DNA of 64,000 bases from Odiellus spinosus (lineage: Eukaryota > Arthropoda > Arachnida > Opiliones > Phalangiidae): assembly GCA_963920705.1 (NCBI GenBank), contig OY987227.1, positions 11,635,602-11,699,601 of the forward strand, given 5' to 3'. The first letter of the stretch is position 1. Each line of letters opens with the position of its first letter. Below are positions 401 through 26,306 of the stretch, one piece after another. The translations under genes were made by a program, and so were the position numbers. Under the pieces are notes generated by a model that saw only the letters and a program-made list of their open reading frames with translations, searched no databases and was not told where the DNA came from.

Positions 401-682
401 CCGCCATTCAGATCCAGCCGTTCAACTTCCCTGGAAGCGTTTTGGAAGGTCAATCCGTGCAAGTGATGTGCGGTATCAGTCAAGCGGAAGGGGAAGTCCG
501 TTTCCGGTGGCTACGGAACGGCGTGACCATCAGTTCCGGAGGTCACGTGTCCCTCGTCTCCCATCCCCGTCTCTCGGTGCTAATGGTCAACGAAGCCATA
601 GGCGAACTATCGGGCAACTACACCTGCATGGCCGAGAGTCAAGGCCAAGAGGACACGCACACAGCGCAACTTATAGTACAAG
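401..682 (+). CDS. Dscam: Cassette 1, Ig1 exon (Dscam Ig7-like)
   Basis: One exon of 282 nt encodes a whole Ig domain. It enters in phase 1 after TTTAG and leaves in phase 1 at G|GTAAAC. The protein starts AAIQIQPFNFPG and shows the Ig hallmarks: first cysteine in VMCGIS, core tryptophan in FRWLRNG, and second cysteine in GNYTC, which is also an N-glycosylation sequon. The same layout recurs in the Ig1 exon at 6968-7255, but the two proteins differ at many positions, so the duplication is not recent. It is a variable N-terminal domain, probably part of the recognition surface. The exact paralogue cannot be named from sequence alone. Confidence 0.88.
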
Positions 683-3600
683 GTAAACCCCCCGAAAGAA
701 TAGGGCTCAAGTTTGCCCAAATATTTGTTGTATAGGTTATGATTTATAACGTAGCAAACATTGACGAATCACAATTCATCCTCATAACTTATTTTAACGT
801 ATTTACCACAGAGCTTCCTCATGACCTTCATACAAGTATTTACATCCCAATTCCCTTTTATCCGAGTAATTAGATGCAAAATACCATAATCAAATTGAGC
901 CCCATTGAAAATGAAGACACTTTAGCTTAAATAGTAGTTAATTTGAGATGCTGAGGGTCAGCCATCTTGAAACTTACTTCTTACATAATTGTACATGTTG
1001 AACTTATTTAGCGTTTTGAGTTTACAAACCCTGTCCAATTCGTTAAACAATTAAAAAATAAAAATAAACACTCACGTGTTTGATGGTCATCTAGATATTC
1101 CACGGACGAACGTCTGACAGATGAGATGTTGTCACAAAAGATCATTTGATTCATTTCCATGTCCCAAGTTGGGTAATTTTGAGGTCCAAGATGAGCCACG
1201 CGTAAACTTTAAATTTGTTCCCGTTCAAATCAACCGTACTTTAATCAAAACCTGTTAAATACAAAACAAAATAATATAGTTAAGTTAATTCTGAAACTTA
1301 AATACTAGAATAAGCTCAAATAATTCGAGAAAAGAAATTAAAGTAAACCACTGTTATATAAAGATCAAATCTTATAAAGCTTTCTTCCACCATGTTTAAT
1401 CAAAGTTGTCTGTTTAATTGATCGTGTCTATCATTGGCCTCAAGATTGATGACAAAGACAAGATAAAAAACATCCAAATGAAATAAATAGAGAGCTAAAT
1501 GGCAATAAGGAAAACAGTGAAACGTGAAGCCCTCTTCTCTGAGTGGCGAGGTTGTAGGTGTGGATACACCGAGGTAATGGATAAAAGGGTGTGACGTTGC
1601 AAGATCAGAAATTGTTAGCTTCTATAAAATCTTTTCCTATCCCCCCTCTCTGCAAGTTCCCATTGAGATAACAATAACCCCCCTTCCAAAAATGCAAAGA
1701 GCATTCTTCTCTCATCAGTGTCAAGAAGAGACCAGCTGAATGCAATATAGGTTAAAATTAACCGAAGGAGAAACAAATTCAAGGGGCTCTTTTTTATAGC
1801 AGATGGTTCCTTTATGTGGAAGAAAATTGATTTTTATGCCACCGTTTAGAAAAACTAACTGAAGTGTATTTCACCTCAAATTGTTAGCGCAGCCAAGTAT
1901 AGGCTACCTATTATCTCTCGTGATATCTTTATTTGGAGATAACGTAGCTTTGTACGTACTGCGTGCTGCCAACTTTAATTGAAATAGACTACAGTTGTGT
2001 ATAACTTAATCTTAGGAAACAAAGATTCTCTCACTAAGCAAACATCGCGTTCACACTAAAAACTTTAAAACAGTGAACTGTAAACTACAGTGAACTGTAA
2101 ACTACAGTGAACTGTAAACTACAGTGAACTGTAAACTACAGTGAACTGTAAACTACAGTGAACTGTAAACTACAGTGAACTGTAAACTACAGTGAACTGT
2201 AAACTACAGTGAACTGTAAACTACAGTGAACTGTAAACTACAGTGAACTGTAAACTACAGAGAACTGTAAACTACAGTGAACTGTAAACTACAGTGAACT
2301 GTAAACTACAGTGAACTGTAAACTACAGTGAACTGTAAACTACAGTGAACTGTAAACTACAGTGAACTGTAAACTACAGTGAACTGTAAACTACAGTGAA
2401 CTGTAAACTACAGTGAACTGTAAACTACAGTGAACTGTAAACTACAGTGAACTGTAAACTACAGTGAACTGTAAACTACAGTGAACTGTAAACTACAGTG
2501 AACTGTAAACTACAGTGAACTGTAAACTACAGTGAACTGTAAACTACAGTGAACTGTAAACTACAGTGAACTGTAAACTACAGTGAACTGTAAACTACAG
2601 TGAACTGTAAACTACAGTGAACTGTAACCTACAGTGAACTGTAACCTACAGTGAACAGTAACCTACAGTGAACAGTAACCTACAGTGAACAGTAACCTAC
2701 AGTGAACAGTAACCTACAGTGAACAGTAACCTACAGTGAACAGTAACCTACAGTGAACAGTAACCTACAGTGAACAGTAAACTACAGTGAACAGTAAACT
2801 ACAGTGAACAGTAAACTACAGTGAACAGTAAACTACAGTGAACAGTAACCTACAGTGAACAGTAACCTACAGTGAACAGTAACCTACAGTGAACAGTAAC
2901 CTACAGTGAACAGTAACCTACAGTGAACAGTAACCTACAGTGAACAGTAACCTACAGTGAACAGTAACCTACAGTGAACAGTAACCTACAGTGAACAGTA
3001 AACTACAGTGAACAGTAAACTACAGTGAACAGTAAACTACAGTGAACAGTAAACTACAGTGAACAGTAAACTACAGTGAACAGTAAACTACAGTGAACAG
3101 TAAACTACAGTGAACAGTAAACTACAGTGAACAGTAAACTACAGTGAACAGTAAACTACAGTGAACAGTAAACTACAGTGAACAGTAAACTACAGTGAAC
3201 AGTAAACTACAGTGAACAGTAAACTACAGTGAACAGTAAACTACAGTGAACAGTAAACTACAGTGAACAGTAAACTACAGTGAACAGTAAACTACAGTGA
3301 ACAGTAAACTACAGTGAACAGTAAACTACAGTGAACAGTAAACTACAGTGAACAGTAAACTACAGTGAACAGTAAACTACAGTGAACAGTAAACTACAGT
3401 GAACAGTAAACTACAGTGAACAGTAAACTACAGTGAACAGTAAACTACAGTGAACAGTAAACTACAGTGAACAGTAAACTACAGTGAACAGTAAACTACA
3501 GTGAACAGTAAACTACAGTGAACAGTAAACTACAGTGAACAGTAAACTACAGTGAACAGTAAACTACAGTGAACAGTAAACTACAGTGAACAGTAAACTA

Positions 3601-4136
3601 CAGTGAACAGTAAACTACAGTGAACAGTAAACTACAGTGAACAGTAAACTACAGTGAACAGTAAACTACAGTGAACAGTAAACTACAGTGAACAGTAAAC
3701 TACAATGAACAGTAAACTACAATGAACAGTAAACTACAATGAACAGTAAACTACAATGAACAGCAAACTACAATGAACAGCAAACTACAGTGAACAGCAA
3801 ACTACAGTGAACAGCAAACTACAGTGAACAGTAAACTACAGTGAACAGTAATCAGTAATAGTAAATTATAATTAACTGTAAACTATTAACTAGAAAAAAT
3901 ATTTTAACAATATTCATAACAGTTGGAAATGCGTTTAAAGTACCTAGTAAAGTATACCTAGCATAAGGAAACATCCGATTCTATTTAGATTATTACCTCA
4001 ATGTCATTGGACAAACAGTAAAATTATAATTAAACAATTTAAACTAATTTCAACCTATAAATTTAGCAACCCAGTTATATCAGTACCAGAATTAATATTA
4101 TTGATTTTTCAGTAATAAAAATAACTTTGGTTTCAG
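683..4136 (+). other. Intron, cassette 1 Ig1 to Ig2a
   Basis: A 3.45-kb intron, GTAAAC donor and TTTCAG acceptor. Half of it is the 17-bp minisatellite at about 2070-3850. The remainder is AT-rich, with no convincing exon on either strand. Confidence 0.75.
2070..3850. repeat. 17-bp minisatellite, about 105 copies
   Basis: Uninterrupted head-to-tail array of the unit ACAGTGAACTGTAAACT. Variants come in blocks. The founder form fills about 2070-2618, followed by a few copies ending AACCT. A T-to-A change giving GAACAGT then takes over to the end, alternating between runs with AACCT and runs with AAACT. Near the right end there are copies with ACAATG and with CAGCAAACT. The founder unit contains a short palindrome, ACAGT-GA-ACTGT, which the T-to-A change destroys. 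Copy number is estimated from length divided by period. Confidence 0.97.
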
Positions 4137-4256
4137 GACCGCCAAAATGGGCCAAAGAGCCCAAAGACACGGCAGTATCCATAGGGGATAGTGCTAAAAT
4201 TGATTGCTCCGCTATTGGCTATCCAGTGCCAAAGATCAAATGGACCAAGCTCAATG
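4137..4256 (+). CDS. Dscam: Cassette 1, Ig2 first-half exon
   Basis: 120-nt exon, phase 1 to phase 1, between TTTCAG and G|GTCAGT. It encodes the front half of an I-set Ig domain: GPPKWAKEPKDTAV, then the first cysteine in IDCSAIGYPVPKI and the core tryptophan in KWTK. The cassette-2 counterpart at 20696-20815 has the same length and phases and a donor that also begins GTCAGT. The domain is completed by the exon at 4948-5118. It resembles Dscam Ig8. Confidence 0.87.
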
Positions 4257-4947
4257 GTCAGTGAATTTAGATAAGCTATATTAAAAATAAAATTATTTAA
4301 ACCTTTATCACAGCCCTGCAAAGGTAGTTTATAGCATTAAAATTTCAAGGTCATCAAATACAATTTTTTTTTTTTTTTCATATATTCATCAAACCACATA
4401 ATATTCTACGCTTCTGTATTATTTAATGCATGGAATAATTCATACAAAAAAAATAAACCATACTTGGGCGCAAATCATTCGACTGAATATTAAATTTAAA
4501 AAACCCACATTTGAAAACCAAAAATTTAAATATTAAATGAATTTAATTTTTATCCGTTTTAATTTTTTTTTTTTTTTTTATTTTAATGTTATGCGGTATT
4601 TCTAAAATATTAGAATTTGCCGTATTATTTATTTTATAATAAAATACTGCATTTTATTTTTTTTTTTAAATTTCATTTTAAATTTTTTTGGTATCGTTTA
4701 ATATTTTAAAATATTTTAAAATTGTTTAGGGTTTAATTAAAAAAAAAAAAAGAATTGTTTAATTATTTCAAATATTTTAAAATTGTAATTTCCAAAGCCA
4801 TTTAATAATTTTTTAAATTTTTTTTTTTTTTAATATTCAGTCGAATAATTTTAAATATTTATATAACTAAATAAAGGTTTTAATAATTTTAAGCTGTAAC
4901 CGTAATTTAAATACGGATAACTAAATATTAATTCAATACGTATACAG
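4257..4947 (+). other. Intron within cassette 1 Ig2
   Basis: A 691-nt intron, extremely AT-rich with many poly-T and poly-A runs (for example around 4360-4378, 4562-4580 and 4740-4751). No other feature seen. Confidence 0.8.
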
Positions 4948-5118
4948 ATACGAAAGGATCGGATCTGGAATCACCGGGTCATAGTCATCATCGATTCAAT
5001 GCGGATGGATCGCTGACAATTACCAGCGTCCGGCAAGAAGATGCTGGTCAATATACATGCGAAGCTTCCAACGGCATCGGTCAGACCCTCCAAAAACTTA
5101 TCAATTTGCACATAAAAG
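4948..5118 (+). CDS. Dscam: Cassette 1, Ig2 second-half exon
   Basis: 171-nt exon, phase 1 to phase 1, between TACAG and G|GTAAAA. It encodes the back half of Ig2: NADGSLTITSVRQEDAG, then the second cysteine in QYTCEASNGIG, closing with LINLHIKG. It is the last exon of the upstream cassette. In frame it can join the constant exon at 26307, skipping all of cassette 2. It could equally join the cassette-2 Ig1 exon at 6968, because phases match. The next thing downstream is the promoter-like region and signal exon of cassette 2, which marks the cassette boundary. Confidence 0.88.
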
Positions 5119-5640
5119 GTAAAACCCTATCATCATACATCAACAACAAAATAAAATACCGAACCAAAATATATTTAAAAACAACACAATACCTCAGGCT
5201 TATAATCAAATTCGCCAATCAAATACAAATTAATTACAGATAATTATGCAATTATAAAACCTTCCACGTTATCATTCAAGTACTAGGCCTAATCAAAAAC
5301 TATCATCACAATTAACCTTTGACCAATGTCAACCCTACCTTCTACCCCATTGGTCTTTGTTTATGCATTAGCATACCCAAACACCAAGGTTAATAATGCC
5401 TTTACATCACACGTTAACCCTAAGCCTCGCACCCATCCTTAATAACAATAATTCTATTATTTTATTAATAATTAACATCAACGTACCCTTTTATTGTCTC
5501 GCCATTAATAGCGGGTGCTTTCTTTTTATATTAAATTTACTCATTATTTCATTTATTTCGCTATCAAAGTTTTGGCGCGTAAATTCCAGAGGAGCCGTTA
5601 TGCCACAGCATTTGCAAACTTTTACTCTCCCTACTTCGTA
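5119..5640 (+). other. Inter-cassette spacer
   Basis: Between the last donor of cassette 1 and the GC-richer promoter region. AT-rich and featureless. Open frames here lack splice sites or domain signatures. Confidence 0.6.
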
Positions 5641-6383
5641 GCCCGCTTACGTACCGGGCGCCAAACATAGGCCTAGCGGGAGAATCTGGTGTGGCGCGCG
5701 CTCTTCGGTACAGGCTTGGCTATCGTTGTCAAAGATAAGGGAGGGTTGGAAACTGCGAAAACAAGGCCGGGGGGTGAAGCGAAAATTCAGCGCTCAGCGG
5801 CTCTAGATTCTCCAAGAGCCAAATAGACGAAAGCCACCAGTCCAGCATTCTGAAGCTTCGACTCTGTGCGGGTTGAAAATTGTTCGATAGGTGCTCCGTA
5901 AAAAGCTAGGAGGATATATTTTTTTTATATATAAAAATAAGCTAAAAGTCCCATCTTTATCCGCATCCTCCCGGATATTTTCCGATTTGTTATTAGGGAA
6001 ATTTAAGGAAATTTTGGATTAAACTATCGTACTGGTTAATTTCAAACGTTTTAGGGTGTGTTATGTTGTGTTCGAGAAAGAAAATATGGCAAATATTGGA
6101 TTAAAATCGACGAGTTTTCGCGTCGTTTCGACTCTACAGTGGTTTTGCAAAGTGTCTACACCCGGGGAAATGAGAAGCAACGCGGGAAAGCTTCTTAACG
6201 GGGGCCAATCCTTTCATTTCGATCGGAAAACCGCGCAAATTCGTCTCCGGGATCACGAAGCCTCGACCGGAGGAGCCGTCTAAATTTTCTCTATCTTTCC
6301 CTTCAAATTTAAATATTAAACGTCAAGAAAGTGCTCAAAAATTATCAGTGAAAAAAAATTAAGTATTAAAAAAAAAATTCAAA
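5641..6383 (+). promoter_or_regulatory. Probable promoter and 5' leader of cassette 2
   Basis: This stretch is GC- and CpG-richer than its surroundings, for example GTACCGGGCGCC at 5651 and GTGTGGCGCGCGC near 5690. It lies just upstream of a signal-peptide exon in the middle of the gene, where each cassette needs its own transcription start. A TATA-like stretch, TATATAAAAATA, lies at about 5928. An upstream open frame (ATG 6086, stop ending 6283) would be in the leader if transcription starts before it. The start site is not determined from sequence. The promoter role is inferred from position and base composition. Confidence 0.5.
6086..6283 (+). other. Possible upstream ORF in the cassette-2 leader
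   Basis: A 65-codon frame from ATG to TAA ends 100 nt before the signal-peptide ATG at 6384. It has no recognisable domain. If transcription starts upstream, it could lower translation of the main frame. It may equally be chance in a GC-rich stretch. Confidence 0.2.
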
Positions 6384-6468
6384 ATGAAGAAAAAATGCAA
6401 CATGTTTATCTGGTGGATTACCGTGGTCCAAATATTCGGATACTATTCCACATTCGTCTCATCCGAAG
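6384..6468 (+). CDS. Dscam: Cassette 2, signal-peptide first coding exon
   Basis: Starts at ATG 6384 in an A-rich context and runs 85 nt to G|GTAAGA, leaving in phase 1. The product begins MKKKCNMFIWW and continues through a hydrophobic core rich in I, V, F and Y to a small-residue end, FVSSE. This is a classic signal peptide: positive n-region, hydrophobic h-region, Ser-rich cleavage region at about residues 25-28. It was too short for routine ORF calling. No acceptor is needed because it is the first coding exon. It joins 6968 in phase 1. Confidence 0.87.
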
Positions 6469-6967
6469 GTAAGATTATCTCTTTTTCTTTCAGGAGTTTA
6501 ATCTGGGGGGGCTATTAAATATTTTCAGCCAAAATAACAACCCTAACTTGAGTTTAAAGCACTCATCTAAGTTCTAATCTTCAAAATAAAATGTTTTGAA
6601 AAATTTAATTATTTACGCAGTCCTAGGGTGCATCAAAATTCACATTAAAACTTTTATCCCTTCTTACCCTGAGAGAGTTAGGATTAAAAGAAAACAAAAA
6701 ATAATAAAAAGACAGGAGACAAAAACTAAGAGACTATATCGATCCAGAAGGGAAAAAAAGCCTTTAAAAATTTATCCATAAATAGTAGTTTCTATTTTGG
6801 TTTGTAACTAAATAATAAATACGCATCATTGGATTCAAAGAAAACGAAAAAAAAAATTGGGATGTTTTAGGCCTAAATCCTCCTTTTGAATTATCAATAA
6901 GTATTAAAAGATAATGTTATTTGAAGCTTAACGCGTTCTTTTTCGATATCTGTTTCTGTATTTACAG
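6469..6967 (+). other. Intron, signal exon to Ig1 of cassette 2
   Basis: 499-nt intron, GTAAGA donor and TTTACAG acceptor. A-rich, no other feature seen. Confidence 0.8.
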
Positions 6968-7255
6968 GCGCCCCTGTAATTCAACCGTTCTTTTTCCCGA
7001 AAAACGTCTCTTCGGGTCAAGATTTGAAAGTAATGTGTACGGTGACTGCGGGTCACCATCCGATGGCTTTCCAATGGATTAAAGACGAGCGAGGGGCCAG
7101 CCTGATGGACGCTAGCCGGACCCACGTCCAATCGTTCGACGACTACTCCATGCTGACCATCAAGGGAGCCGATCGAGAACACGCCGGCAATTACACCTGC
7201 ATCGCCAAAAACGGGGTCGGAAAAGACAGCTACTCCGCACAGCTATCCGTTCTAG
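6968..7255 (+). CDS. Dscam: Cassette 2, Ig1 exon (Dscam Ig7-like)
   Basis: 288-nt exon, phase 1 to phase 1, encoding one whole Ig domain (about residues 29-125 of the isoform). It begins GAPVIQPFFFPKNVSSGQ, with the first cysteine in KVMCTVTAG, the tryptophan in FQWIKDE, and the second cysteine in GNYTCIAKNGVG, closing with YSAQLSVLG. GNYTC is an N-glycosylation sequon shared with cassette 1. The IQPF-FP start and YSAQL-V end match Dscam Ig7. The donor is G|GTAAGC. Confidence 0.9.
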
Positions 7256-9747
7256 GTAAGCTAAATTACTAATCTCCGTATAGACGTATAACTACGTAGT
7301 GCTCTTAGTCAGCCAGCTGGAACTTAAGGGGGTGCGCGAGAATTAGATCATTCTAAAGAAATTTTCAAATTTCGGGATGAAGTCATTTTCTTCACTTTGA
7401 GAGTTTGTTTATAGTTTATTTCAGTTTGAAAAGGCAGCACGCGCAAAGTTACTCTCTATTAATCAAATCAATGAGATAAAGCGTCACCTAGCTTCGTACC
7501 GTGCTGCCAAATCAAGGTGGAATTTTAAATATAGAAGTGTTCAAAATGTCATAAACGAATTCAGCTAGAAGTCGTATCACGCGGCTTTCCATTTAGAAAT
7601 TGTTTTGCAAATATGGAGCAATTAAACAACAGGGCATAGAGTTGCCACATCATTAACATTCTAATGTTAATGCTCCATGGTTTGCGAAAAATATTTTCGC
7701 AATGTAAAATGGTGTATATATGAAATTATTATGTACATTAGGAAACCATAAACACGAAATATATAAATGAATATGCAAATTATTTGTTGAAGAGTTCATT
7801 TGTGGTATAACTGCTGCGTACTAGTCTAAAACAAATTCTGACAGTTTTGGTGACGCATCGTCTTGTCATATTAAGATTAAATTATATTTATAAGATATTA
7901 ATTAATATTAACACCAAAAATTTGTAATCATACTAATATCAGACTAACCAATATCAAAAATCAAACTCTTAAGCTTTTATTTTTAAAGGGATAATGAAGA
8001 CGAGTAACATGTTTTTTAAATCGATTAATTAAGAAAGATTCGATTTGAGTCTGCTAAGACTAAGTCCATTTTAATACGGATTAATAAATGTCGGACAAAA
8101 TCTACGGATAATCAAAGATTGTTTTAAAATATTTCGCGCAATTTAAAAAATATGAATTAAAAATTATAATTATAAATTATAAAGTTTCTAATGGATATAA
8201 AAATAAAACGTTACTCGATGGTTTATTATCCCTTTATCATTTTCCTTTATTTGGCTCGCGACTTTTAGTAGAAATAGAATAATATTGCTTTATATCGCTC
8301 AAATGGATGTCCACGGAATAAAATTGAATGGATTAAAAGGCTAGCTTCTAAGCTCCAGCTTATCCGCTTATACCTATAGCTATATTCAATTTCATTTGGT
8401 GTCGGTACATACGCGTTACTCAGGGACTATACGGTGAAGGCAACCTTTAGGGGGATTAGTCATATATTGGCGACCGTCTAGCTAATATTCTATGAAAGGG
8501 AAAATGAAGGTGCTAGTCCTTCTGGAGTTGATAAGGACTACTTTTTCGCCCCATGAGCTTAATCATTATGTATGAATCCGCCTAGTATTTTCCCTACATT
8601 GATTGCCAACTCCTCTTGGACATATATAGACTAGAGTTCTCATTAAATGACGGGCACCCGAAAATTAAGGGTTACCAACCCTATTATATACTGACGAAAA
8701 ATCAATAACTGAGGTAAATAACCCCTAAAGAGGGGTTGCTTCATATATAAAAGTAACATCCATGAAAAGGGATCCAAATTCTCATGTGAAACCGGTTTTC
8801 AAATGGGAAGTTGGTCACTTTCAAGATTGTTACATAGTTTACATAAAAATTACCAAGTCAGTTGGAATTTTAACAAAAATCACTTTTCCTAAAGATACGT
8901 AATATATTAAAATTATTGAAATTTCTCTTACTTTCTTCCAATCCTTTCTTTGTTAAACATAGCCAAAAAAATTATAATCTCCAAAACATATAATTAAATT
9001 AGGCTTAGGAGTTGCGTTAGGCTTAATCGATATTTGAAATTAAAAGCACGTGGCTCAAGTCTCGCGATAATACCATGAATCGCGCGAAAAAAATCATTCT
9101 CGGCGCGTTTTTTTTTTTTCAAATAAAAACTCAAATTCAGCCGGAGTTTGCAACGACGTTTATCATAACGCATCTAGCTTTGAGTGTGCATTTTAGCGTT
9201 CTCTATATGGACAGACAGACAGACGCACCTAGATAATTATATCGCGAGCCAATGAGAATATTCCCATGGTGCAGGAGGTGTTTATTATAGAGTTAAAGCA
9301 TCTAATCAAGAGACTGATTGGTTAAAATTAAAGATGAATCTTTAAAAATTCGTGTTATTTTTAGAAATAGTCATTTCGTGATTTCAAGGGATTTGGTAGT
9401 TTATAAGTGCAATTAAAAAATTTTGATTGGAGTGTTTAATTACCCAATATATAATAAAATATAGGTTAGATTAAGAACATCATATTTTACGAAAGTAAAA
9501 ATAAAGGTTCCCTTTATCTTTTAGGGTAACCTAACTTTTTTACAAGTTGAAAATTTTAAGCGGAATATATGTCCTTCTCGAGAACAATTCTTATGACTTT
9601 ATCTTCTAATTAACAATATTATCTTAACTTTGATGGTTAAAAGATATTTTTTCAACAACTTGAGATGAGAAAGAACAATACGATATATTAATACGTAATC
9701 CATATTTTAGTTCTAATTTAGAAAATATTTATCAATTTATTTCTCTT

Positions 9748-9872
9748 TTAAAAAATAGAGTGACAACAAAGTTGACTCATGCACAAACGATAAAAGTTTA
9801 ATTACAAAACTTTTTTAATTAAACTATTATCGCTTGTGCATGAGTCAACTTCGTTGTCGCTCTTTATTTTAA
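9748..9872. mobile_element. 125-bp foldback element flanked by TTAA
   Basis: Two arms of about 50 bp (starting at 9752 and ending at 9868) are near-perfect inverted copies around a loop of about 10 bp. Both contain GTTGACTCATGCACAA or its complement. TTAA sits at both outer ends (9748-9751 and 9869-9872). It is non-coding and consistent with a miniature inverted-repeat element of a TTAA-targeting family. Confidence 0.8.
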
Positions 9873-9937
9873 ACCATATCTCTAGGCAAGATTAACGCTA
9901 ATTTTAACAATAAACAAATTATTTCGTTATTCTTAAC

Positions 9938-10388
9938 TTAAAGTGAGGCTGTCGCTGATTTTTCATGAACTCCAAATGGAAATTAAGCAGCATTTTAAAA
10001 TCATCAGTTTTCGAAATTTGAAAATAAAAATCGCACGCAATACTACGTCATCGCACTATGGTCACGTGGCTATTGTAGAGCCTATAGTTGACTCTCGCGC
10101 GTTCTGGCACGTGGTAAGGTTATTTTCGCGCTGTCTTTTTCGTAGAGGTACTTAACCGAGAAAGTCCTTCCTTTCGTATGAAAATTATCGATTACGTTCC
10201 AGAAATAAACTACCTCATATATCGTAAAAGAAATTGCCTATATATTTTGTGTCATTTTAATTTACGAGTTTCTTAAGAACACTTCAAACCAGAATTATAA
10301 AATTTTGAATATGACGTTTTAACAGTATGATAAAACTATAAATATAATTCATAGGCAATGGAAATCAACGGTGACAGTCTCACTTTAA
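9938..10388. mobile_element. TTAA-flanked miniature element, AGTG family
   Basis: Left end TTAAAGTGAGGCTGTCGCTG, right end (complement) TTAAAGTGAGACTGTCACCG: terminal inverted repeats of about 18 bp with TTAA on both sides. It is 451 bp and has no transposase. Related sequence starts at 14658 and lies around 28390-28710, 29178-29547 and (reverse) 32215-32375. Confidence 0.8.
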
Positions 10389-13232: not shown

Positions 13233-13247
13233 GGGGGGGGGGGGGGG
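13233..13247. repeat. Poly-G run of 15
   Basis: Fifteen consecutive G. The length is likely to be unreliable in sequencing. Confidence 0.9.
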
Positions 13248-15060: not shown

Positions 15061-17401
15061 ATTAAAGCGGTGACGTTTTAAACAAGAAACCGTTACTAAT
15101 CAAAAACAAGCGAAGGATTTGCGGAGATTTATTTTTCTTAGCACCCTACACTCTTAAAACCATATGAAAAAAATAAAATTGTAATCGGCCTTCTTTGATG
15201 AGGGAATTTTTTCACTCATTTGAGGGAGAAGCTTTGGGATATTGGGAGGCCATATCAAAAACCCACACGCATTTGCGCTTAAACAACACGCGCGTCCTTT
15301 AAACGTATTTCGAGCGAGCGATGACAAGGCGAGCTAGATATATAGGGCATAACCCGCCATTTGACTGAGATCGCGACTTCCTGTTTTGGTGTTTCCTGTT
15401 ACCGCGTATAATATTCGATAGGAAGACTCATAATGCGCCCGACAAACCCAATTGCGTGAGCCTCGTCGTCCTTGTTGCCAGTAAAAAAAGATATCTTAAT
15501 TGTTATTCAACTTTTGCGCAATGAGTCAATGTAATCATTTTTGAGTTTCAATTTTAAATTATCGTGAAACGGAATTACACAAGGAAGTTTTTGACTTTTA
15601 CAGTTTATACGAAAACTTAAAGAATTATTGTTTTAGAAAGTGGAAAAATTATATTCTTTCTTTTAACTATTGACATCATGAAAATAATGTTTGAATAAAT
15701 ATTTGCTCGGTAGGCTTCGGATTAATCTTAATTTAGGCTTAGTATAATGAGGATATTTAATCAAATATTGCTATAGTATAATGACTTAGTTCCTGATCTG
15801 TAGTGTAGTGTTGATATAGTTCTTGTTAGACTGAGTAATTTTGAAGATAAATCTCAAGTTAGGCTTAGAAATTTTACGAAAAAAGCTCCACTTAGGCTTA
15901 ATTATGTAAGCCTGATAATTTTGATAAAGCTCAAGCTAAGCTTATAAATAAGCTTAATAAGAACAATTAGGCTGACCAGTTCTAATAAAAAAATTACCAC
16001 AAAGTCAAACTATATGCCTTTTGAAATTTTTCGAAATATCAATTTAAATAGCTCGGGGATTATAAAACGCATATCACACTCAACTATTCTTTAACACCTG
16101 ACCACATATTCCTTTTAAATAAATATGGAACAGCCGTTCTCAAAAAACCCTACCTGCAGTCAAACAAACAATAGCATTTCTTTTCCAAACCGTTATTTCA
16201 CTATAAAGTTTTCATTTTGAAACTAGTTTTTCTTTTAAAACTCGAAACGAGTTGAAACGAGTCCTACTCTCTCTCAGCTGGGTCTCTTTCAATCCTTATC
16301 AGTGCAAAAATAAGTGAAAAACCCGTGTGTCATGACAAAACTTTTGCACTTCTTGCCACCAGGCCATATTTGAAATCAGTCGGATAATTCAGCTCGTATG
16401 AAGATAGGCTTAGCGTTACCTCTAATAAACCGGTGTTACTGACAGTGTTGAATCGCATTCTTGAATCTTGAGCTGATTCTACTTCTAGCCTTTGTACGTT
16501 ATAGATTCAATAGTTCCCATAAGCTGTAAGTGACAACAAAAGCTAGAGAGAGAGGGAACCGAGCTTATTTTAAGGTTTTTTGAAACCTCTTGGCTGCTGG
16601 CGTCTTTCTTCGTTTTAAAGGGAATATGAAACTAGCAAATTCATAATCTATTCATTACAGACAAGATATATTTATGAAATAGGCAAAGACCTTTTACATT
16701 GACGCAGCCATTCTAAGTTGAATATTTACGTCAAATGTTTAGTCGAGAGGGAAGAAGCGGTTGGTGTAGGAGCACCATCTATAGTTTTTTTTTATTTCCT
16801 CTCGCCTTGTACGAAAGATGGCGTGTTTCTTGGAGGTATTTTCTATGAAGGAAAGTTACGAATCATTCTAGTCCAAAATAGTTATTTATCTTTTGTTAAT
16901 AGGGCCTTAGCACATGTGACTTAACACACCCCAGTCACCATTCTGGTATATTTAAACTGTGGAAGCTAATAAGCTATGCACACCCGCACTCTGATTTGTG
17001 ATATACCCGAGGGGGGATGGGCAGACACTGAATTCAGCCGTGGAGGAATACATAGTTTTCACTAAAGGGGGTAAGTGCCGTTCCCCCCATGTTGCCAACC
17101 ACTTGTGAGTGCAGAGGGAAAGGCTAGAGTTCAGTTTTGAAACTGATCTGTTCTGAACTGCACTCACAAGCTCCTGGCAACCTGGGAATGAAAGCAAAGC
17201 TGGGTAAGAGGGGTGGAATTATCTTTTGCCCCTTTACTGAAAACTATGTATAGACGGAATGCCAACTCCGCCTTTTTTCTACATAGTTACAACCTTAAAA
17301 TAGACCCAGATTATCATTGGAAAATAATGTTTTTCTATGGGAATTTAAGTTACATACAAGGGTGTTACCGAGCACTTTATTTTACGTGTTATATTCCCTT
17401 T

Positions 17402-17520
17402 TAGAAGAAGAAGAAGAAGAAGAAGAAGAAGAAGAAGGGGAAAAAATGAAGTTGAAATAAAAAGCCTCTTTGCACCTTTTCTCTTGAAAACCTTTTTTTT
17501 CTCTCTCTCTCTCTCTCTTT
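17402..17520. repeat. AAG and TC microsatellites
   Basis: About twelve AAG triplets from 17404, and a TC run at about 17498-17518. Open frames on the reverse strand here are made only of the repeat. Confidence 0.9.
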
Positions 17521-20339
17521 AAAAATAAATTCCAAAAATACTTCGATCCACCTACTACTGCTACCACCCTTGGTGATGGCGATATAAAGGGTGTCAATCA
17601 TCGATAAATAGAATGGAAAAATTTTGAAAACAGGGATGAAATTTTAGCTTGAAATTTACTGGTTTTACTTTATTTATAAATTCTCTAGAGCGTATTATTC
17701 CGTTTTTAAATAAAAAGTATGACGGGTTTTTTCTTCAAAAACTTCAATCACTCTTTTATTAATTAACTAGGGTAACGTTTTTTTTTTAAATTTCATTGAC
17801 GTTTTGGACTGGTTTATATTTAAATTGTAGGTTTCTTATTTTGGAGATTGAATTAGAACGCAAAAAAAGATTTCGAAATAAGAAAAAAAATATATGGTCA
17901 ATAAACTACAAATAGAATCCGAAATTAATTTGTTAAACTTTCTCTCCTTAAATATAATTTAGCATCTCATTTAAATTAATATTTAAAAATATGAAGTTCG
18001 TTACTATAGTCTTTATCTCACAGGTACTAATAATGAAATCGTCGATAACTTATGCAAATACTTTCTTGCGCGAGCTAGTGTTCGTTACTTTATGGTGACA
18101 GAAGCTCAAATAAAGGGGAGCCAAGCATTTCGAGGTGGAATGGATAATAAATTATTTATCAGAATAGATAATAAATTATTTTTCCTGACTTTTTTTTAAC
18201 AATACATATTTTAAATTCTTGGCTAATTAATTAGAAATAAGAGGTTTAACTAAAGCTCATTAAGAATTAAAATTAATATTTCGCTTTCGGTAATTAACGG
18301 AAAAGGATTAATTTTAGAAAATTGTTTCTCACGAACCTCTCCTGATTGAAGGAATCTCCCGAAAAGTTCGATTTCTCGGAATTGCAAATGGGGAAATTAC
18401 TTTTCCAATTCCTATATGCCATTCCAATTCCCAAGAGTCATCGGAATTAGTTTTAAAATTTAGTAGCTAGTTAACACGACTTTACTTTAGTTTCAAAAAG
18501 AGATAAAAATGGAGCCTAAGGTTTGTAGGTGCTGAAATTTCAACCTGATTCGGACTGTATAGAGTTTCATCATTTTGGAAAATCCCATTAGGAATAAAGC
18601 GACGAAAAGTGTGGGCCCGGGATTTATATATATTTCCCAGAACCAAACCTTCTTTCAATCGGTCCCTAAGCTGTTCAAATAAAAAAAAACTCTAAAGGCT
18701 ATTACCTATACTCATAGGAAGATTGGAAAGGTGTAATTCGAAAGCGATTCGTCTGTAGAAATCTTTCTATCCTTCGTAGCCCTAGTTATTTCAAAAAGAA
18801 ACTAACTTAAATTTGGAGTTACATATTACTTCGTTTTAAACGAAAATTCATTACAGAACTCACTTTATATTTAAATAGTATACACTTACTTAAACTAAAC
18901 TAAAATACAATCCTTAGATCTAAAATTCTCACGACTTGAATAAATATTCTTGAATTTTAAAAGGCATTGTGTCCACGGAATTTTTTTATTTAATTATAAA
19001 AATCATTTTGCGTAAATGATTTTTATAATAAAATAAAAAATTTCCACGAAGTATCCGTTTCTACTTATTATTAAAACTCGTATAAATATTACTAGGCAAA
19101 ATATACCGTAATTACTTAAGTTTTGCTTTATGATATTATCAACTTAATTAACATTCAAAGAACATACTTCATAATTTGGTTTGGGTAAAACATATTGAAA
19201 TGAAAACTGTGGCCTCTTTAAAATAATTAATTTCGTAAGTTGGATAAAAATGAAGGGAGAAAAGCCATCAACAATATTGTACAAATATTTCACTCTAAAA
19301 AAAACCCCAGGCACCACGCGAAATTAAACCATAACTATCACGCCTCCAGCCGTTCCGCTTCGATGCCAATCTCAGCTTGTTCAAGTTGACAATAATAGCT
19401 CTTTAGATTTGAAAAGAAGCGTGCGATGGCTCAGCTTTTTTTTTTTTTTTTTGTTTAAAAAGTAATATATATATTTTCGTCTAAAAAAATTTGGACTGAG
19501 GCTAAGGTGTTCAAGTGGAGTTGATAACGACTACGTTGTAGTCTATTAGTTATAGCATTGCGAATTATTCTGCCTCAACTTTTCCCATGGCATCCAACTC
19601 CTCTTGAAAGCGAATATAGGGGGTTCGAATCATACCCGAAGTTGCTTGCGGGGAATGTAAAGAGAAACTCTTCGCTCCGAGGATGGAGAGGAGATGGAAA
19701 CGGAGAGAGGATGGTAGGGGAAAAGTAGGAGGATGGAAGAGGCTGGAGATGAGAGGGATGAAGGAGAAGCGGGAGAGCTTTGAGGAGAAAATCGATTCTA
19801 TTAGGAGGCGCGAGCGATAAAAGCAAGCCCCACTCGTCCACGACCTTTTGTTGGAAAAGTTCATCCATGACGTCATGGATCTCTCTCTCATCTTTCTCAT
19901 CCGCCCTCCCTTTCCTCATCCCTCATCCTCGACTTCTTTCTCCTCGAAAGAGTCAGACTCGAATAATTGCTTTGGTTAAAAATATACGTCCGCGTTTTGG
20001 TATTTTAATAAAGAAATCTCTTTGATCGATGAGGGAAAACGCTACGGGGCACTCGCTATATATATTCGACCCGAAGCTTGACACCGTCAGTTCGCTAATT
20101 TAAGCCTAAATCTGGTCTTTTACACTGAAATTTTGGCGGGAAAGAGGCCCTGCGGGTACAACAATACTATGAGTACCGGTGTGTAGAGGCTGGAACGCTC
20201 TAAAAGGACAAATTTGGGATTGTTTCAATTTTTATTCTTATTAAAGAGAAAAGTGAATGAATTCATATTGTCAAGAGATACCCTATTTGAGTTTAGGCTT
20301 AAAAGATGATTGTCAAACTACCTAAAAAATAAATGGAAT

Positions 20340-20475
20340 TGATTTTTGAATCAAAGGTCAAGGGAAGTCAGGGAATTGATATTTGGTTCAAAAAGTCAAG
20401 GAAGATCAAAGAATTTTGGTCAAGAGAAAGCTTTAAATGGTCGAGAAAGGGGAGAAAGGTCAATTTATAGTAACC
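20340..20475. repeat. Dispersed GTCAGGGAAT repeat
   Basis: Copies of the theme 'gtcagggaatt ... tccaaaaagtc' lie here and at about 30115-30190, 30425-30510, 51480-51575 and 62500-62555. They are degenerate and short. The parent element is not recognised. Confidence 0.45.
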
Positions 20476-20695
20476 CTGTAATAAAGTTCAATATAGCACA
20501 GTTTAATTATAATTAATAATTTAAATTATATTTTGACTACGGTATATAAATATCAAACTGACTAATATTAACGCATTAAAAAGGACTAATCTTCAAATTC
20601 AACATTTAGTCTATTTTGAAGCTCAATGTATTAAAATATATTATACGAAACAGCAACGCTCTAACTTAGTTAATTTTATTTTTATCTCATTTCAG

Positions 20696-20815
20696 TATCA
20701 CCTCGCTGGACGGAAGAACCCAGCGACGTCCAAGTAGCTGTGTCCAAGCAAGCCGTCCTTCAGTGTAAAGCTGAGGGTTTCCCCGAGCCCAAGATCGTAT
20801 GGAGAAGGAAGAAAG
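20696..20815 (+). CDS. Dscam: Cassette 2, Ig2 first-half exon
   Basis: 120-nt exon, phase 1 to phase 1, between TTTCAG and G|GTCAGT. It encodes VSPRWTEEPSDVQVAVS, then the first cysteine in LQCKAEGFPEPKI and the tryptophan in VWRRKKG (isoform residues about 125-165). P-RW at the start and C-A-G-P-P-KI-W match the first half of Dscam Ig8 and the cassette-1 exon at 4137-4256. A stop would come soon after the donor if the intron were retained. Confidence 0.9.
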
Positions 20816-21555
20816 GTCAGTTAAACCTGGGTCAAACTAACCTTCGAATATCCCTGACTGTCCTTCTTTGAAAGATTCTCTAAAAATCTCTAAAAAGAAT
20901 GCAGGCTGCCAAAAACCTTTTTTCCTCCAACTGGTACCGCTGTTCAATACAGTTACGAAAGCTTTCACTCACAAATGTCAAAGTTCGGATGAAATTAAGT
21001 CCCCTTTTTCAAGTTGGACGGTCCTATATAGCTCCTTTTTACCGCTCGACACAAAATATCGATTTGGGTGTCAATATAGTTCAAATTGAACTAGTTTGCA
21101 AAACTACTTTATTCCCCTATATAGGTTAATATTGAGTATTAATCCGCCTTATTTTTGTTTTTAATGTTATCTCTTCGCGAACCAAGAACTCCGATACTGG
21201 TCCTTTTTTCTGGACACATTTTTCCTTTGGATAGAAACGATTTTTTGTGTGTTCCTGACCAAGTTTCTTCCCCTTTTTTTGGGGGGATTCTTTTTATTCT
21301 TCTTTCTTATAGATTGCCAGGCGTTATTACTCTAGAGAGTTCTTTGCTTACTGCTTACGGGCCTCGTATAAGAGTTTAGCCCCCCTTCATCTATTTCTTT
21401 TGTTTTAAAGTCTTCTATCTAACTCGCTGTGTAGCCTCCCAAAAAAATCGTTAAGCCTTTGTTGTAAAAATTGTTGGAAATCCACTGTAAATATCCGTCA
21501 CAAAAAGTTTAAAGAATTTAAGAAAAGACTAGCATTCCTTCAAAATAAAAAACTT

Positions 21556-22172
21556 TTAAGCTTAGTTCCCACTTGACCGAAAACACGACCGAAACACTGC
21601 GTTAACACCTCTGCGGTAAAAAAATTTCTGCACAAGATGACCGAAAACGATTTCGGTCGGACAGAATCTGTGTTCTATTTTTACCGCACAAGTCGACCGA
21701 AAGATAATTCTCTTGAAATCCTTGAGCACGCCTTCTTTTAAATATATCTCTCATCCAAAACCGTCTTCGTTTAATATTGGAAATTTTTTTGTACATAAGA
21801 TACGAAAGCATTGTATAATTAAATAAGCATAGTGTATTAATTATTTCAACAGAAAAACTCGTATCTGACAGGTCTTCCATCAGAGATGGCGCTGCAGCCT
21901 AGTTTTTTAAAAAATATTTGGCGGTAAATTCAAAAACAGACTTTAAGCAGACGACGTGTCAAGAACTCTAGTGTCTCGTTATTTTCGCGATTCTACGAGA
22001 CACTTACGTCACACCACGTGATTACTCGAATCTCCTTTCGGTCGCGGTTTTCGGTCGTATGTGTGAACCAATGGAAAATTATACCGTCGGGGCTCTGCGT
22101 TAATAGACATTTTTTGCCGCAGAGACAACTTTTTCGGTCGTTATTTTCGGTCAAGTGGGAACCTAGCTTTAA
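21556..22172. mobile_element. 617-bp TTAA-flanked miniature element with long inverted ends
   Basis: Left end has GTTCCCACTTGACCGAAAA after TTAA (21556-21559). The right end is its complement before TTAA (22169-22172). Similarity continues inward for about 60 bp, including a second ACGACCGAAA and CTCTGCGG motif on each side. The interior is rich in CGGTCG words. There is no transposase. It differs from the other TTAA families here. Confidence 0.82.
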
Positions 22173-23969
22173 GGTATTTTCTTAGTAGTTACGGAAAAAG
22201 TAGGGTTTGAAATTTAAAGGGATTGTTAAATGTAAAGAAAAAGGATTTAACGTTAGCCATGACCAATAGGAATGATGTTAAAGATGACCCAAAGGAATAA
22301 TGTTAAAAATGAGCCAAAGGGATAGTATTAAACATTGCTAAAATTATAATTAGATTAACATGACCAAAAAGATAATTATGTTAACCAGATCAAAATGATG
22401 TTAACATAACCAAAAGGATAATAATGTAATTACCATGCTTTAAAGGATAATTATGTAATTACCATGATTTTAAAGATAATTATGTTACCATGATTTTAAA
22501 TATATTTATATTAACAGTATCAAAAGATATTTTGCTAGCCCTGATTACAAGAATTCCTACGCATAAAATAATATTAACTGTTCCATCAATGAATCTCACA
22601 GTCTGAAGAATATTTATACGAAATATTTAACTCCATATAAAAAGTATCCAAAAACAAGCTATAAAAAAAAAAACAGAAAAATACTTTTTCATTTCATTAT
22701 CCCTTTAAAAATGAAAGAAGCGTGTGTGGTATGAAGAAGAAGCTCGGTGGCTCGACCTAGAGCATCTTCGGCTTTCGAGAAACTTTATACAATCCTTAAG
22801 CGCGTTGTTAGGAGTTTAAGCCTTTTTTTTTTAGAACATCCGGATTTTTTTTCCTCTCCTAGCTTAGATCTTTTCTCTCTATACTATCCTACATTCTTTT
22901 TCCGAAGCAACCAACATCATTAGTCAATGGAAAAGAAAAAGAGAAGATTGGACTTCGAGATACGAAAAAAAACCGAGCAAAATCGGCTTCTAGGGCGTCC
23001 CAACTACACTATCTGTTCAGGATCGTATTGCTAGAACTACTTTTCGGTCTAAGAGCTTTAACATTGTGTTTTAACGCGCCACGGCTTTCGCGAGTTCGAG
23101 ACACCACTGTTGAAACATAGTATATCTAGCTACATCAAAATCGATTGAAATAACTTTTCTTTTTTGATGATGAGGAGAAGAGAGGCGCGGGAAAAAAAAG
23201 ATGGAGCCAAGGATGGAGCTTTGTTCGACTTATCTGAACCAATAAATAAATGTTAGGTGAAAGAGAACATTCGTTTCGAGTTCTAGAATTTGTTTAAGTG
23301 ATGATTTTCTTTCGAAGAACTATTTTCATTACTATTATACACCCATATTAAAAATTTTACAACTTTGGGTTGACGCGTTTTTAAGAAACATTAAAATTAA
23401 ACCTAACGTTCAGACCGACCGACAGACAGTTTTCTTGTTGCTAACCAACCGAGTTGGGGTAGATTAAAGATTAGAATATTTACTATCATTTCTAGCTTTT
23501 TACGCATTGACTCATAAACGATGGATAAAATTGTAGAAGATACGTGAGATACACATTTCGTTCGATTTATTGGAATCAATAAATGTATGATAGGAAGACG
23601 GAAAAAAAAACGGCGTAAACGGGATATTGTAGACTTTACGTCATGTTCGCGGCTTGGTACGCGTTGACTCACAGAAGTCGAACCAGGATGGGATGGAAGA
23701 GGATGCTCTTTGTATCATCTGTCGCTCTTTTTCTTTTCTTTTCGCTTTTTCATTCGACCATTATGTTGTAGACTTTGATCTCGTAAAAAGGAAGCCCCAG
23801 ATCGGAAACCTCCGAAGGAAAAGAATAGAGCTTTCTATCTCTATTAAGACACTATCTCCTTTAATTTAAGGAGTACCCTATAATAACCGTTTTTATTGGA
23901 GACTTGTTATTTTTGATCAGGAAAGAGTATAGTATTTGATATAAATTGGATAGGGAATTCTCGATTCCC

Positions 23970-24945
23970 TTATATCGAAATATTGACTCCTTTAAAGCGA
24001 AATACTGACTCCTTTAAAGCGAAATACTGACTCCTTTAAAGCGAAATACTGACTCCTTTAAAGCGAAATACTGACTCCTTTAAAGCGAAATACTGACTCC
24101 TTTAAAGCGAAATACTGACTCCTTTAAAGCGAAATACTGACTCCTTTAAAGCGAAATACTGACTCCTTTAAAGCGAAATACTGACTCCTTTAAAGCGAAA
24201 TACTGACTCCTTTAAAGCGAAATACTGACTCCTTTAAAGCGAAATACTGACTGCTTTAAAGGGAGGATGCAACCTAACAATGAGTGATTTTTTATCGATT
24301 CCTTATTGTTTAAATAGGCCTAATCCACTATTTAAAAAATTTACAAACAAATATTAAACTAGAAATAAATTTAAAACTTACCCTGAAAATAGGCTTAGTG
24401 GGATTCATGGAGCTCCCGATTTCCTCGCGTGTAAGGTCTAGCGACCAATCGCACGGGACGTAAGTCTCGTGGAGATCTCGCGTGAACGACGGGCCTTTGC
24501 TCATTGGTCGCTAAACCTTACACGGACGCAATTCAGGATCTCCATGAATCCCGCTAAGCCTATTTTCAGGGTAAGTTTTAAATTTATTTCTAGTTTAATA
24601 TTTGTATTGTAAACTTTTTATCGGTGGATTAGGCCTATTTAAACGATAAGGAATCGATAAAAAATCACTTGTAATTAGGTTGCATTCTCCCTTTAAAGCG
24701 AAATACTGACTCCTTTAAAGCGAAATACTGACTCCTTTAAAGCGAAATACTGACTCCTTTAAAGCGAAATACTGACTCCTTTAAAGCGAAATACTGACTC
24801 CTTTAAAGCGAAATACTGACTCCTTTAAAGCGAAATACTGACTCCTTTAAAGCGAAATACTGACTCCTTTAAAGCAAAATACTGACTCCTTTAAAGCAAA
24901 ATACTGACTCCTTTAAAGCAAAATACTGACTCCTTTAAAACGAAA
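23970..24945. repeat. 22-bp minisatellite, about 24 copies, interrupted
   Basis: Unit CGAAATACTGACTCCTTTAA plus AG. About 13 copies lie left of the TTAA element at 24256-24696 and about 11 to its right. The last few have CAAAAT for CGAAAT. Degenerate descendants continue to about 25460. Confidence 0.95.
24256..24696. mobile_element. TTAA-flanked miniature element, GGGAGAATGCAACC family, copy 1
   Basis: Terminal inverted repeats read TTAAAGGGAGGATGCAACCT (left) and TTAAAGGGAGAATGCAACCT (right, complement). They extend inward through ATCGATTCCTTA and TAGGCCTA to about 150 bp, so the element folds into a long hairpin. It sits inside the 22-bp minisatellite, and the TTAA at each edge is part of the repeat unit, which gives the exact insertion point. 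Related copies lie at 38080-38506 and 41946-42495. Confidence 0.9.
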
Positions 24946-25205
24946 TAATATCTCCCTAATATCGAAAACTAAATATTGTCTCCCTAATATCGAAAACTAA
25001 ATAAACTACCTTATAACTAAATATCTACTCTCTTATTATAATGAAATTTGGCACCCTAATATGAAATTATTGACTCCCTCAAAACAAAATGTTGATTCCC
25101 TAAAATAGAAATACCGACTCCCTCAAAAACAAAATAACAACCTTATAACGAAATATCTACTCGACATCCCTTGTAGCGAAATATTATTATCGACTACTAT
25201 AACGA

Positions 25206-25420
25206 AATATCGACACCCATGACTCCCTTATAACGAAATATCGACACCCATGACTTCCTTATAACGAAATATTGACACCCATGACTTCCTTATAACGAAA
25301 TATTGACACCCATGACTTCCTTATAACGAAATATTGACACCCATGACTTCCTTATAACGAAATATTGACACCCATGACTTCCTTATAACGAAATATTGAC
25401 ACCCATGACTTCCTTCTAAC
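25206..25420. repeat. 31-bp tandem repeat, about 7 copies
   Basis: Unit contains TAACGAAATATTGACACCCA followed by TGACTTCCTTA. It appears to derive from the neighbouring 22-bp repeat, sharing CGAAATA-TGAC. Confidence 0.9.
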
Positions 25421-25662
25421 GAAGTATTGGTACCCAGAACTTCTTCGTATCGAAATACTGACAACCATAATTGCCTTGTAACAAAAAAGTGATAATTCCC
25501 TTATTAAGAACGATTGGCGAAGATATAACGAAATGCAAACTTTCCCATTTATTTTATATCGTCTTCCCCCATCTTCACTGTAACGAAACATATTCCTACG
25601 CTATTACATAACTTCAGGTATAATAAACGTTATTTTTTCTCCTATTTCTGGTCTGTCTGCAG

Positions 25663-25830
25663 ATTCGAGTTTGATTCCCGTTACGGACGATGGCCATTTC
25701 CGGCTGAGCGCAAACGGAAGTTCCTTGACAGTCGATTCGGCCAAACCGGAAGATACTGGCCAATACGAATGCGAAGTCACCAACGGTGTCGGTGATAAAA
25801 TAAGCAAAATAATTTCGCTCAGCATTCATG
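25663..25830 (+). CDS. Dscam: Cassette 2, Ig2 second-half exon with GC donor
   Basis: 168-nt exon after CTGCAG, phase 1 to phase 1. It encodes DSSLIPVTDDGHFRLSANGS, then SAKPEDTGQYECEVTNGVGD with the second cysteine, and closes with IISLSIHG (isoform residues about 165-221). The only donor that keeps the frame into 26307 is CATG|GCAAGT, a GC-AG intron. The nearest GT, three bases later, would change the phase. It is the last variable exon, 476 nt before the first constant exon. Confidence 0.88.
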
Positions 25831-26306
25831 GCAAGTTTCAAAATATTATTACTAAATCTCCAAACCTTTTTTTTTTTACAATACTTCAAGGTTTCATTGT
25901 AATCTATATTTTTTATCCAATGAATTTAATTTGCGCGAATGTTTATTGTGTAATAGCTCTTTAAATCTTTAAAGCTAAAACCTTTCGAGTGTTTTCATTT
26001 TCTAAATATGTTTTTGCCCAAAATCCTCGTATTTTCCCTCGATCATTGTCACTAAGAGGCTTAGCTGGTTCTTACATCTTATCAACGTTAAACCTATTTT
26101 CCTACACTTATACTAAACAAAATCCTACGACGTTAAGCTCATTTTCCTACAAATCTACTAGACAAAATCTTACATCGTCTTATTTAAGCCTATTTTTAAT
26201 ACGCGCTTACAAACATACTTATAACTTTGAAATAATAAGATTTAGGTCTGGTCTGAATTATTAATTATAATAAATTAATTATTTGATTTGTTTGTTTCGG
26301 GTTTAG
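25831..26306 (+). other. Intron between cassette 2 and the constant region
   Basis: 476-nt GC-AG intron ending GGGTTTAG. This acceptor at 26305-26306 must serve every cassette of the gene. AT-rich, nothing else seen. Confidence 0.8.

Follow-up and report, generated by a model that had tools for sequence, protein, structure and literature searches.

In the shortened Dscams (sDscams), the first immunoglobulin (Ig) domain is the counterpart of Ig7 of Dscam1 (PMC4835542). The cassettes of the M. martensii sDscam-beta genes generally consist of four exons coding Ig7–8 and have their own promoters (PMC4835542, PMC5775551); sDscam-beta6 has two such cassettes (PMC4835542). Yue et al. (2016) reported that sDscam genes tend to cluster (PMC4835542), and Cao et al. 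(2018) described them as largely dispersed or partially clustered, an arrangement that might reflect regulation distinct from that of the protocadherins with their long-range looping (PMC5775551). In other sDscams, Ig1 gives isoform-specific homophilic trans binding and the FNIII domains support cis pairing (PMC10154414). The promoter sites (CSE) of the vertebrate protocadherins point forward and bind CTCF (PMC7811963); among arthropods, CTCF has been shown in the water flea and the honey bee (PMC7021899). Here we analyze a stretch of DNA from Odiellus spinosus (the window: 64,000 nucleotides, nt; C3:11635602–11699601 of a 443-Mb assembly). The gene that it carries is very probably of the sDscam-beta type, with two tandem 5' cassettes, A and B, one constant region (Ig3, FNIII1–3, transmembrane), and probably one promoter per cassette.

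Two complete cassettes upstream of one constant region

The initial annotation had placed two blocks of Ig1 plus split Ig2, with matching phases, before a single set of Ig3–FNIII exons. Its coordinates were confirmed to the base, including the start of Ig3a at 26307 and the signal-peptide exon with which the second block opens inside the gene. Only the proximal cassette, B, had been called complete; it is, and so is cassette A, whose signal exon lies just upstream of the window. Each cassette is therefore made up of a signal exon, Ig1, Ig2a, and Ig2b, with Ig2 split into 120 and about 170 nt. The exons are as follows; positions outside the window are given on the window scale, with negative numbers upstream of it.

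-235 to -160, plus strand: cassette A signal-peptide exon, just outside the window
401..682, plus strand: cassette A Ig1 exon, sDscam Ig1 type, 282 nt, phase 1-1
4137..4256, plus strand: cassette A Ig2a (first half of Ig2), 120 nt, phase 1-1
4948..5118, plus strand: cassette A Ig2b (second half), 171 nt, phase 1-1, GT donor score 8.5
5119..6383, plus strand: interval expected to house the cassette B promoter and 5' untranslated region
6384..6468, plus strand: cassette B signal-peptide exon, 85 nt, ATG at 6384, phase 1 donor
6968..7255, plus strand: cassette B Ig1 exon, Dscam Ig7 / sDscam Ig1 type, 288 nt, phase 1-1
20696..20815, plus strand: cassette B Ig2a, 120 nt, phase 1-1
25663..25830, plus strand: cassette B Ig2b, 168 nt, GC donor score 0.9
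26307..26454, plus strand: constant Ig3, first exon (Ig3a), phase 1-2
32942..33096, plus strand: constant Ig3, second exon, phase 2-1
35491..35622, plus strand: constant FNIII1, first exon
40596..40760, plus strand: constant FNIII1, second exon
47322..47392, plus strand: constant FNIII2, first exon, 71 nt, phase 1-0
48535..48772, plus strand: constant FNIII2, second exon

All exons of cassettes A and B have AG acceptors and GT or GC donors, and every junction from the signal exon to Ig3 is in phase 1. Cassette A keeps open frames in all four exons, its splice sites, and its Ig cysteines. An in-frame stop precedes the signal exon in A as well as in B, where it is a TAA at 6360–6362. Ig1A and Ig1B are reciprocal best matches in the window (phmmer, E about 4e-14, 34% identity), the Ig2 halves likewise (phmmer), and both cassettes have an NYT site ahead of the Ig1 cysteine. 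No third cassette copy was found in the window by phmmer or tblastn, and neither program revealed an extra cassette hidden in the 13.4-kb and 4.8-kb introns of cassette B.

Exon phases are consistent along the whole constant chain from Ig3 to FNIII2. FNIII3 was not found inside the window; its exons lie beyond it, at about 64.52 kb (E 0.055, a weak match that was accepted on visual inspection) and 68.6 kb (E 9e-11), with a transmembrane-like exon at about 72.0 kb. The domains that lie in the window, Ig1–3 and FNIII1–2, match solved sDscam chains, in agreement with the proposed identity as a chelicerate shortened Dscam. Ig1A and Ig1B match sDscam Ig1 chains (PDB sequence set), Ig1B also matches Drosophila Dscam1 Ig7 (3dmk 619–711), and both Ig2A and Ig2B match Dscam1 Ig8 (3dmk about 713–808). 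Because A and B match the Ig7 and Ig8 types, they are duplicates of an Ig7–8 unit rather than successive Ig domains of a long Dscam. The protein search that the annotation had proposed as a check paired Ig1–Ig3 of cassette B with Ig1–3 of sDscam alpha25 (7y6o, E 3e-60) and FNIII1–2, as their best match, with FNIII1–3 of M. martensii sDscam-beta2 (7y8s, 267.5 bits, E 6e-79). Against the alpha7 FNIII1 and FNIII2 chains the scores were 61.8 and 88.3 bits, so that the constant region is nearer to beta than to alpha in a comparison of two genes only, sDscam-beta2 and alpha7. Chain identities (7y6o, 7y8s, alpha7) are those of the data-availability passage of PMC10154414.

Further cassettes of this gene had been expected upstream of the window. 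None was found: the nearest Ig exons in that direction, about -24 kb on the window scale, code the Ig3 of a different gene, and Ig profiles built from the cluster found nothing between these and 401. The suggested upstream scan for signal/Ig1/Ig2a/Ig2b blocks did find many, all of them belonging to two neighboring genes, U1 and U2. The same profiles found no Ig between Ig3 of the window gene and its transmembrane exon. Its plan is that of an sDscam, with Ig1–3 (Ig7–9 type), FNIII1–3, and one transmembrane-like exon, and with no Ig1–6 and no Ig10 found. Tandem 5' cassettes that code two Ig domains in four exons each are the sDscam-beta arrangement.

Use of the two cassettes

Promoter activity, splicing choice, and adhesion of the window gene are inferred here from the sequence. 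Each cassette would have a separate promoter, and the capped cassette would be spliced to Ig3. A transcript from promoter B would join Ig2b of B to 26307, and one from promoter A would join 5118 to 26307 and skip B. The two resulting proteins would differ in Ig1–Ig2; by analogy with the solved sDscams, Ig1 would set homophilic specificity and the FNIII domains would aid cis pairing.

Several features weigh against this scheme. The Ig1A acceptor is weak (-2.9, with the other seven acceptors or sites scored at -0.2 to 9.9 on our own scale), Ig1A forms a long branch (1.34) in the Ig1 tree, and the Drosophila Dscam1 chain (3dmk) was not among the 37 chains listed for Ig1A at the cut-off used. The acceptors of Ig1B (5.5) and Ig2aB (9.9) both score above that of Ig3a (3.1). 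The last donor of cassette B, at 25830, is a weak GC, with 0.9 vs. 8.5 for cassette A, and the introns of B reach 13.4 kb, in contrast to the compact cassettes of the neighbors. Finally, because all cassette introns are in phase 1, splicing from A to B would stay in frame. The GC donor of the constant-proximal cassette might favor cassette A or regulated use.

The weak acceptor and long branch of Ig1A could mean that cassette B alone works as the front end, with A a relic or seldom used, and the cassettes farthest from the constant exons do tend to be used less, except in sDscam-beta4 (PMC4835542). We consider this unlikely, given the four open exons, signal exon, splice sites, and Ig cysteines that A retains. 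The phase 1 introns and the higher score of the Ig1B acceptor relative to that of Ig3a would also suit splicing of A and B in series, to give a longer protein with five Ig domains in which the B signal exon is a minor second start; isoforms with extra Ig repeats were unexpected products in M. martensii (PMC4835542). However, cassette B possesses an ATG, a hydrophobic signal sequence, and an upstream in-frame stop of its own, and such splicing is implausible for neighbors with 20–25 blocks of this kind, which together make it distinctly improbable.

Two further schemes involve sequences outside the window. The cassettes of U2 are on the same strand, with about 51 kb between the last of them and Ig3 at 26307, and could also be spliced past their own constant exons to the Ig3 of the window gene, so that cassettes would be shared between genes. 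The intervening Ig3, FNIII, and transmembrane-like exons of U2 itself speak against this, and we give it very little weight. Mutually exclusive splicing from a single shared upstream promoter, in the style of insect Dscam1, would be served by tandem Ig7-type exons that are mutually in frame. It is hardly credible here: instead of one shared leader, each of the 72 cassettes of the cluster described below has its own signal-exon candidate, and no shared upstream Ig exons were found between the next gene and 401. The scheme of two promoters, each with its own cassette, is the one that we retain.

A CTCF-like core between the cassettes of U1 and U2

Addition of 100 kb on each side of the window gave a region of 264 kb, in which profiles built from the cassettes detected 72 Ig1 exons in four genes: U1 and U2 upstream, the window gene (W), and D, downstream on the opposite strand. 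Counts of enriched words, of AGGTGGCG, and of the weight matrix were made on slices that extend no farther than 350 bp from the predicted ATG (that of U2_01 is probably wrong there). Counts of consensus cores, of either word, and of nearby signal exons were made from the previous exon to Ig1, to a maximum of 600 bp, and are independent of the predicted ATG.

Among sense words of 8 and 9 letters, those most enriched upstream of the ATG were AGGTGGCG, in 36 of the 72 slices (0.2 expected from shuffles), and AGGTGGCGC, in 32 (0.0 expected). By gene, AGGTGGCG occurred in 15/20 slices of U1, 21/25 of U2, 0/25 of D, and 0/2 of W, and in 0/72 on the antisense strand. A weight matrix, trained on the U1 and U2 sites themselves, exceeded the 99% shuffle level in 17/20 (U1), 23/25 (U2), 3/25 (D), and 0/2 (W) slices, and again in none of the 72 antisense. 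Because AGGTGGCG had been found in the same data, published consensus cores were tested. AGRKGGCRS, the core of the human CTCF consensus CCASYAGRKGGCRS quoted in PMC6746451, was present on the sense strand of 35 of the 45 U1 and U2 regions and on the antisense strand of none; in 200 shuffled sets the count averaged 0.37 and never exceeded 2. The ten regions without it are U1 2, 16, and 20 and U2 1, 2, 7, 8, 23, 24, and 25. The Drosophila CTCF consensus CNNNAGNNGGCGC, quoted in PMC8336396, occurred in 16/45 regions (15/25 in U2 and 1/20 in U1), with none antisense and fewer than 0.1 per array in shuffles. Either AGRKGGCRS or AGGTGGCG was found in 39/45 regions, by a definition ("either word") picked after the core counts were known.

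Across the whole 264 kb, AGRKGGCRS has 44 matches on the plus strand and 4 on the minus strand. A convergent, antisense copy beside a possible enhancer was considered, but the 4 minus-strand matches in the 264 kb stand against about 8 plus-strand ones outside the arrays, and nothing is claimed from these. Extension of the core with bases of these sites gives the 14-mer AGGTGGCGCYATNG, which occurs 37 times genome-wide, 22 of them at C3:11.534–11.604 Mb, and 21 of those 22 are on the plus strand inside U1 and U2; a reversed control pattern occurs 6 times genome-wide. A single antisense copy, at C3 about 11533960 (about -101.6 kb), lies within 8 kb that have no Ig or FNIII matches and could be either a boundary or a chance match.

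The flanks of 34 of the 36 AGGTGGCG sites were profiled over 45 bp on both sides, with the sites aligned on the word itself. More than 10 bp from the core, identity was 29–35% within U1 or U2 and 26–27% between them (no baseline computed). Selection, rather than simple inheritance, seems to have preserved the core, in an alignment that was centered on it.

Recognition of the U1/U2 element by CTCF is a reading of the core only. The 14-base human consensus fits poorly, the best U1 and U2 sites having 2–4 mismatches and its upstream half not being conserved there. The candidate CTCF-like sites may help to choose among the promoters of U1 and U2, with W under another rule. AGGTGGCGCTAT is a candidate sequence of the element. 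The literature on chelicerate sDscams, as covered by main texts, without supplementary files and most subscription papers, yielded no description of CTCF-like elements at sDscam promoters. Of three articles devoted to these genes, two do not mention CTCF in the main text and one does so solely in the title of a reference; a review retrieved alongside it discusses CTCF in connection with protocadherins. A text search of the literature gave no match for the Drosophila CTCF motif GGTGGCGC, and for the word AGGTGGCGC nothing that concerned CTCF by title among the matches listed.

Cassettes and genes without the element

Six cassettes of U1 and U2 contain neither word: U1_16, U1_20, U2_1, U2_23, U2_24, and U2_25. 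Two of these, U2_1 and U2_24, have AGGTGGCGC with one mismatch. The element-free cassettes tend to lie at the constant-exon end of their arrays, with a mean relative rank of 0.79 (permutation p 0.0076); because U1_18 and U1_19 carry the element, the constant-proximal lack is a trend only.

In W, the sense-strand core is absent from both cassettes (0/2). AGRKGGCRS is found on neither strand of 5119–6468, an interval in which observed/expected CpG is 1.28. D likewise has AGRKGGCRS in 0/25 regions; the related sense-strand word [CT]AGGTNNC[AG]C occurs in 14/25, with none antisense and 0.47 in shuffles. A clean split between D and the upstream arrays is weakened by seven of the 25 D regions, which fit the 14-base human consensus with two mismatches, against 9 among 500 shuffles at two mismatches or fewer. 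The D promoter slices (108–136 kb) also contain CGCCAT, on the sense strand in 23/25 and antisense in 1, a word found in 20/25 U2 slices, and TTTCGCGC and TTCCCGCC in 8/25 each. We take these words to recall YY1/Pho and E2F sites.

The Dscam-family genes at C12 20.40–20.42 Mb were considered as an independent test of the element and discarded, AGRKGGCRS having no match on either strand of 19 kb; the element is therefore not common to all Dscam genes of this genome.

The surrounding sDscam cluster

The four array genes were located by profile search as follows.

About -80.6 to -60.1 kb, plus strand: U1, 20 compact cassettes
-53.9 to -25.7 kb, plus strand: U2, 25 compact cassettes
In the window, plus strand: W, the window gene, 2 cassettes
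108.1 to 135.8 kb, other strand: D, 25 cassettes

U1, U2, and D each have their own Ig3, FNIII exons, and hydrophobic transmembrane-like segment. A fifth gene, U0, also upstream, has Ig3, FNIII, and a transmembrane-like segment, and no cassette of it was found down to about -108 kb. Cassettes were counted by Ig1, as the listing calls two Ig3b exons (of U1 and D) Ig2b and omits the Ig2b of some unsplit D cassettes.

A wide search gave a signal-exon candidate for all 72 cassettes; the exon chosen for U2_01 is doubtful, a later search having given a better candidate. Within 600 bp upstream of Ig1, candidates were present in 71/72 regions, compared with 4/72 antisense and about 10% of shuffled sequences; under stricter limits the count was 68/72, vs. 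1 antisense and 0.9 shuffled. The single miss within 600 bp is, by elimination, cassette A of W, whose exon starts 636 bp upstream. From the last domain match of the previous cassette to the ATG, the median distance is 328 bp (67 cassettes), so any promoter there would be very compact.

The tree of Ig1 (72 sequences, 96 columns) is weakly resolved. In it, the members of an array mostly fall together with others of their own gene, with U1 in three pieces; W_01, W_02, U2_25, and D_25 are unplaced, and D_25, W_01, and U2_25 have long branches. Three alternate cassettes of U2, numbers 10, 12, and 14 (about -43.1, -40.8, and -38.5 kb), have an unsplit Ig2, and the U2 groups in the tree are 10-12-14, 9-11, 13-15, 17-19 (weak), and 18-20. 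Part of this array may have grown by two-cassette units.

A genome-wide search with one FNIII2 query matched 41 rows, and the five genes of the cluster account for seven of these. One Ig1 query gave at least 100 matches at E <= 1e-4, with the best 150 of 206 candidates scored. Of those 100, 69 are in the cluster, three farther upstream at C3 11.428–11.464 Mb, eight at C12 20.40–20.42 Mb, and 20 elsewhere. The C12 locus (C12:20402501–20421500) holds four tandem Dscam-family genes in about 18 kb. All four have a pair of Ig1-type exons, one Ig3-like exon, and FNIII exons, and their transmembrane-like segments are nearly identical. An Ig array at C14 17.53 Mb was rejected as a second sDscam locus; the 10 kb analyzed there code Ig-FN3-FN3 modules that are titin/twitchin-like by our own reading.

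Other features of the window

In cassette A, the Ig1–Ig2a intron contains a 17-bp satellite (2070–3851, 104.8 copies, 99% matches). At 23976–24947, two 22-bp tandem arrays flank a long inverted repeat, recognized by eye, that resembles a miniature inverted-repeat transposable element. DDE_Tnp_4 transposase frames occupy 58322–59443 on the minus strand and 60681–61586 on the plus strand, with a weak HTH_Tnp_4 match in between; both strands encode the same stretch of peptide, as in an inverted pair. The window contains no RNA families at gathering score and no tRNAs.

Comparison with known systems

By itself the window gene is one more sDscam-beta. Arrays of this type, separate promoters, two-cassette genes, and a tendency to cluster are already published; what is new is the CTCF-like core in the inter-cassette regions of U1 and U2. 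The locus carries more weight than the window gene alone, with four array genes together and, in two of them, an oriented core within otherwise strongly diverged flanks. We tentatively suggest, as something short of an even chance, that arthropod sDscam and vertebrate protocadherin arrays have converged on tandem promoters and on the same switch, namely a sense CTCF site at each variable promoter that is absent constant-proximally. U1 and U2 would have this element; in W, all cassettes would be of the constant-proximal type that lacks it and would be expressed under a different, non-stochastic rule like that of the C-type protocadherins. If CTCF does bind there, two animal lineages would use the same promoter-choice device for unrelated proteins, and the element-free window gene would be a built-in control.

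The window gene is like M. martensii sDscam-beta1–6 in its four-exon Ig7–8 cassettes with their own first exon and in its constant Ig9, three FNIII domains, and transmembrane segment, and like sDscam-beta6 in having two cassettes. Unlike the M. martensii sDscam-beta genes, four array genes with 72 cassettes lie here in one 264-kb stretch, and most of the regions between cassettes in U1 and U2 have a CTCF-like core on the sense strand. The likeness to Drosophila Dscam1 lies in Ig1B, which matches Ig7, and in both Ig2 domains, which match Ig8; the differences are that no Ig1–6 was found and that the cassettes are 5' units here and internal, mutually exclusive exons there.

As in the clustered protocadherins, tandem 5' variable units precede constant exons to which they are predicted to be spliced, although the protein family is unrelated and a protocadherin unit is one large exon rather than four. 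Binding of CTCF and looping have been shown for the protocadherins and would be predictions here, and the window gene and D, unlike the protocadherins, are without the element. In U1 and U2, as in the protocadherins, an element in one orientation with CGC[CT] lies upstream of the ATG, and the units that lack it are mostly those close to the constant exons. In orientation, position, and exceptions it resembles the protocadherin CSE closely, though not exactly.

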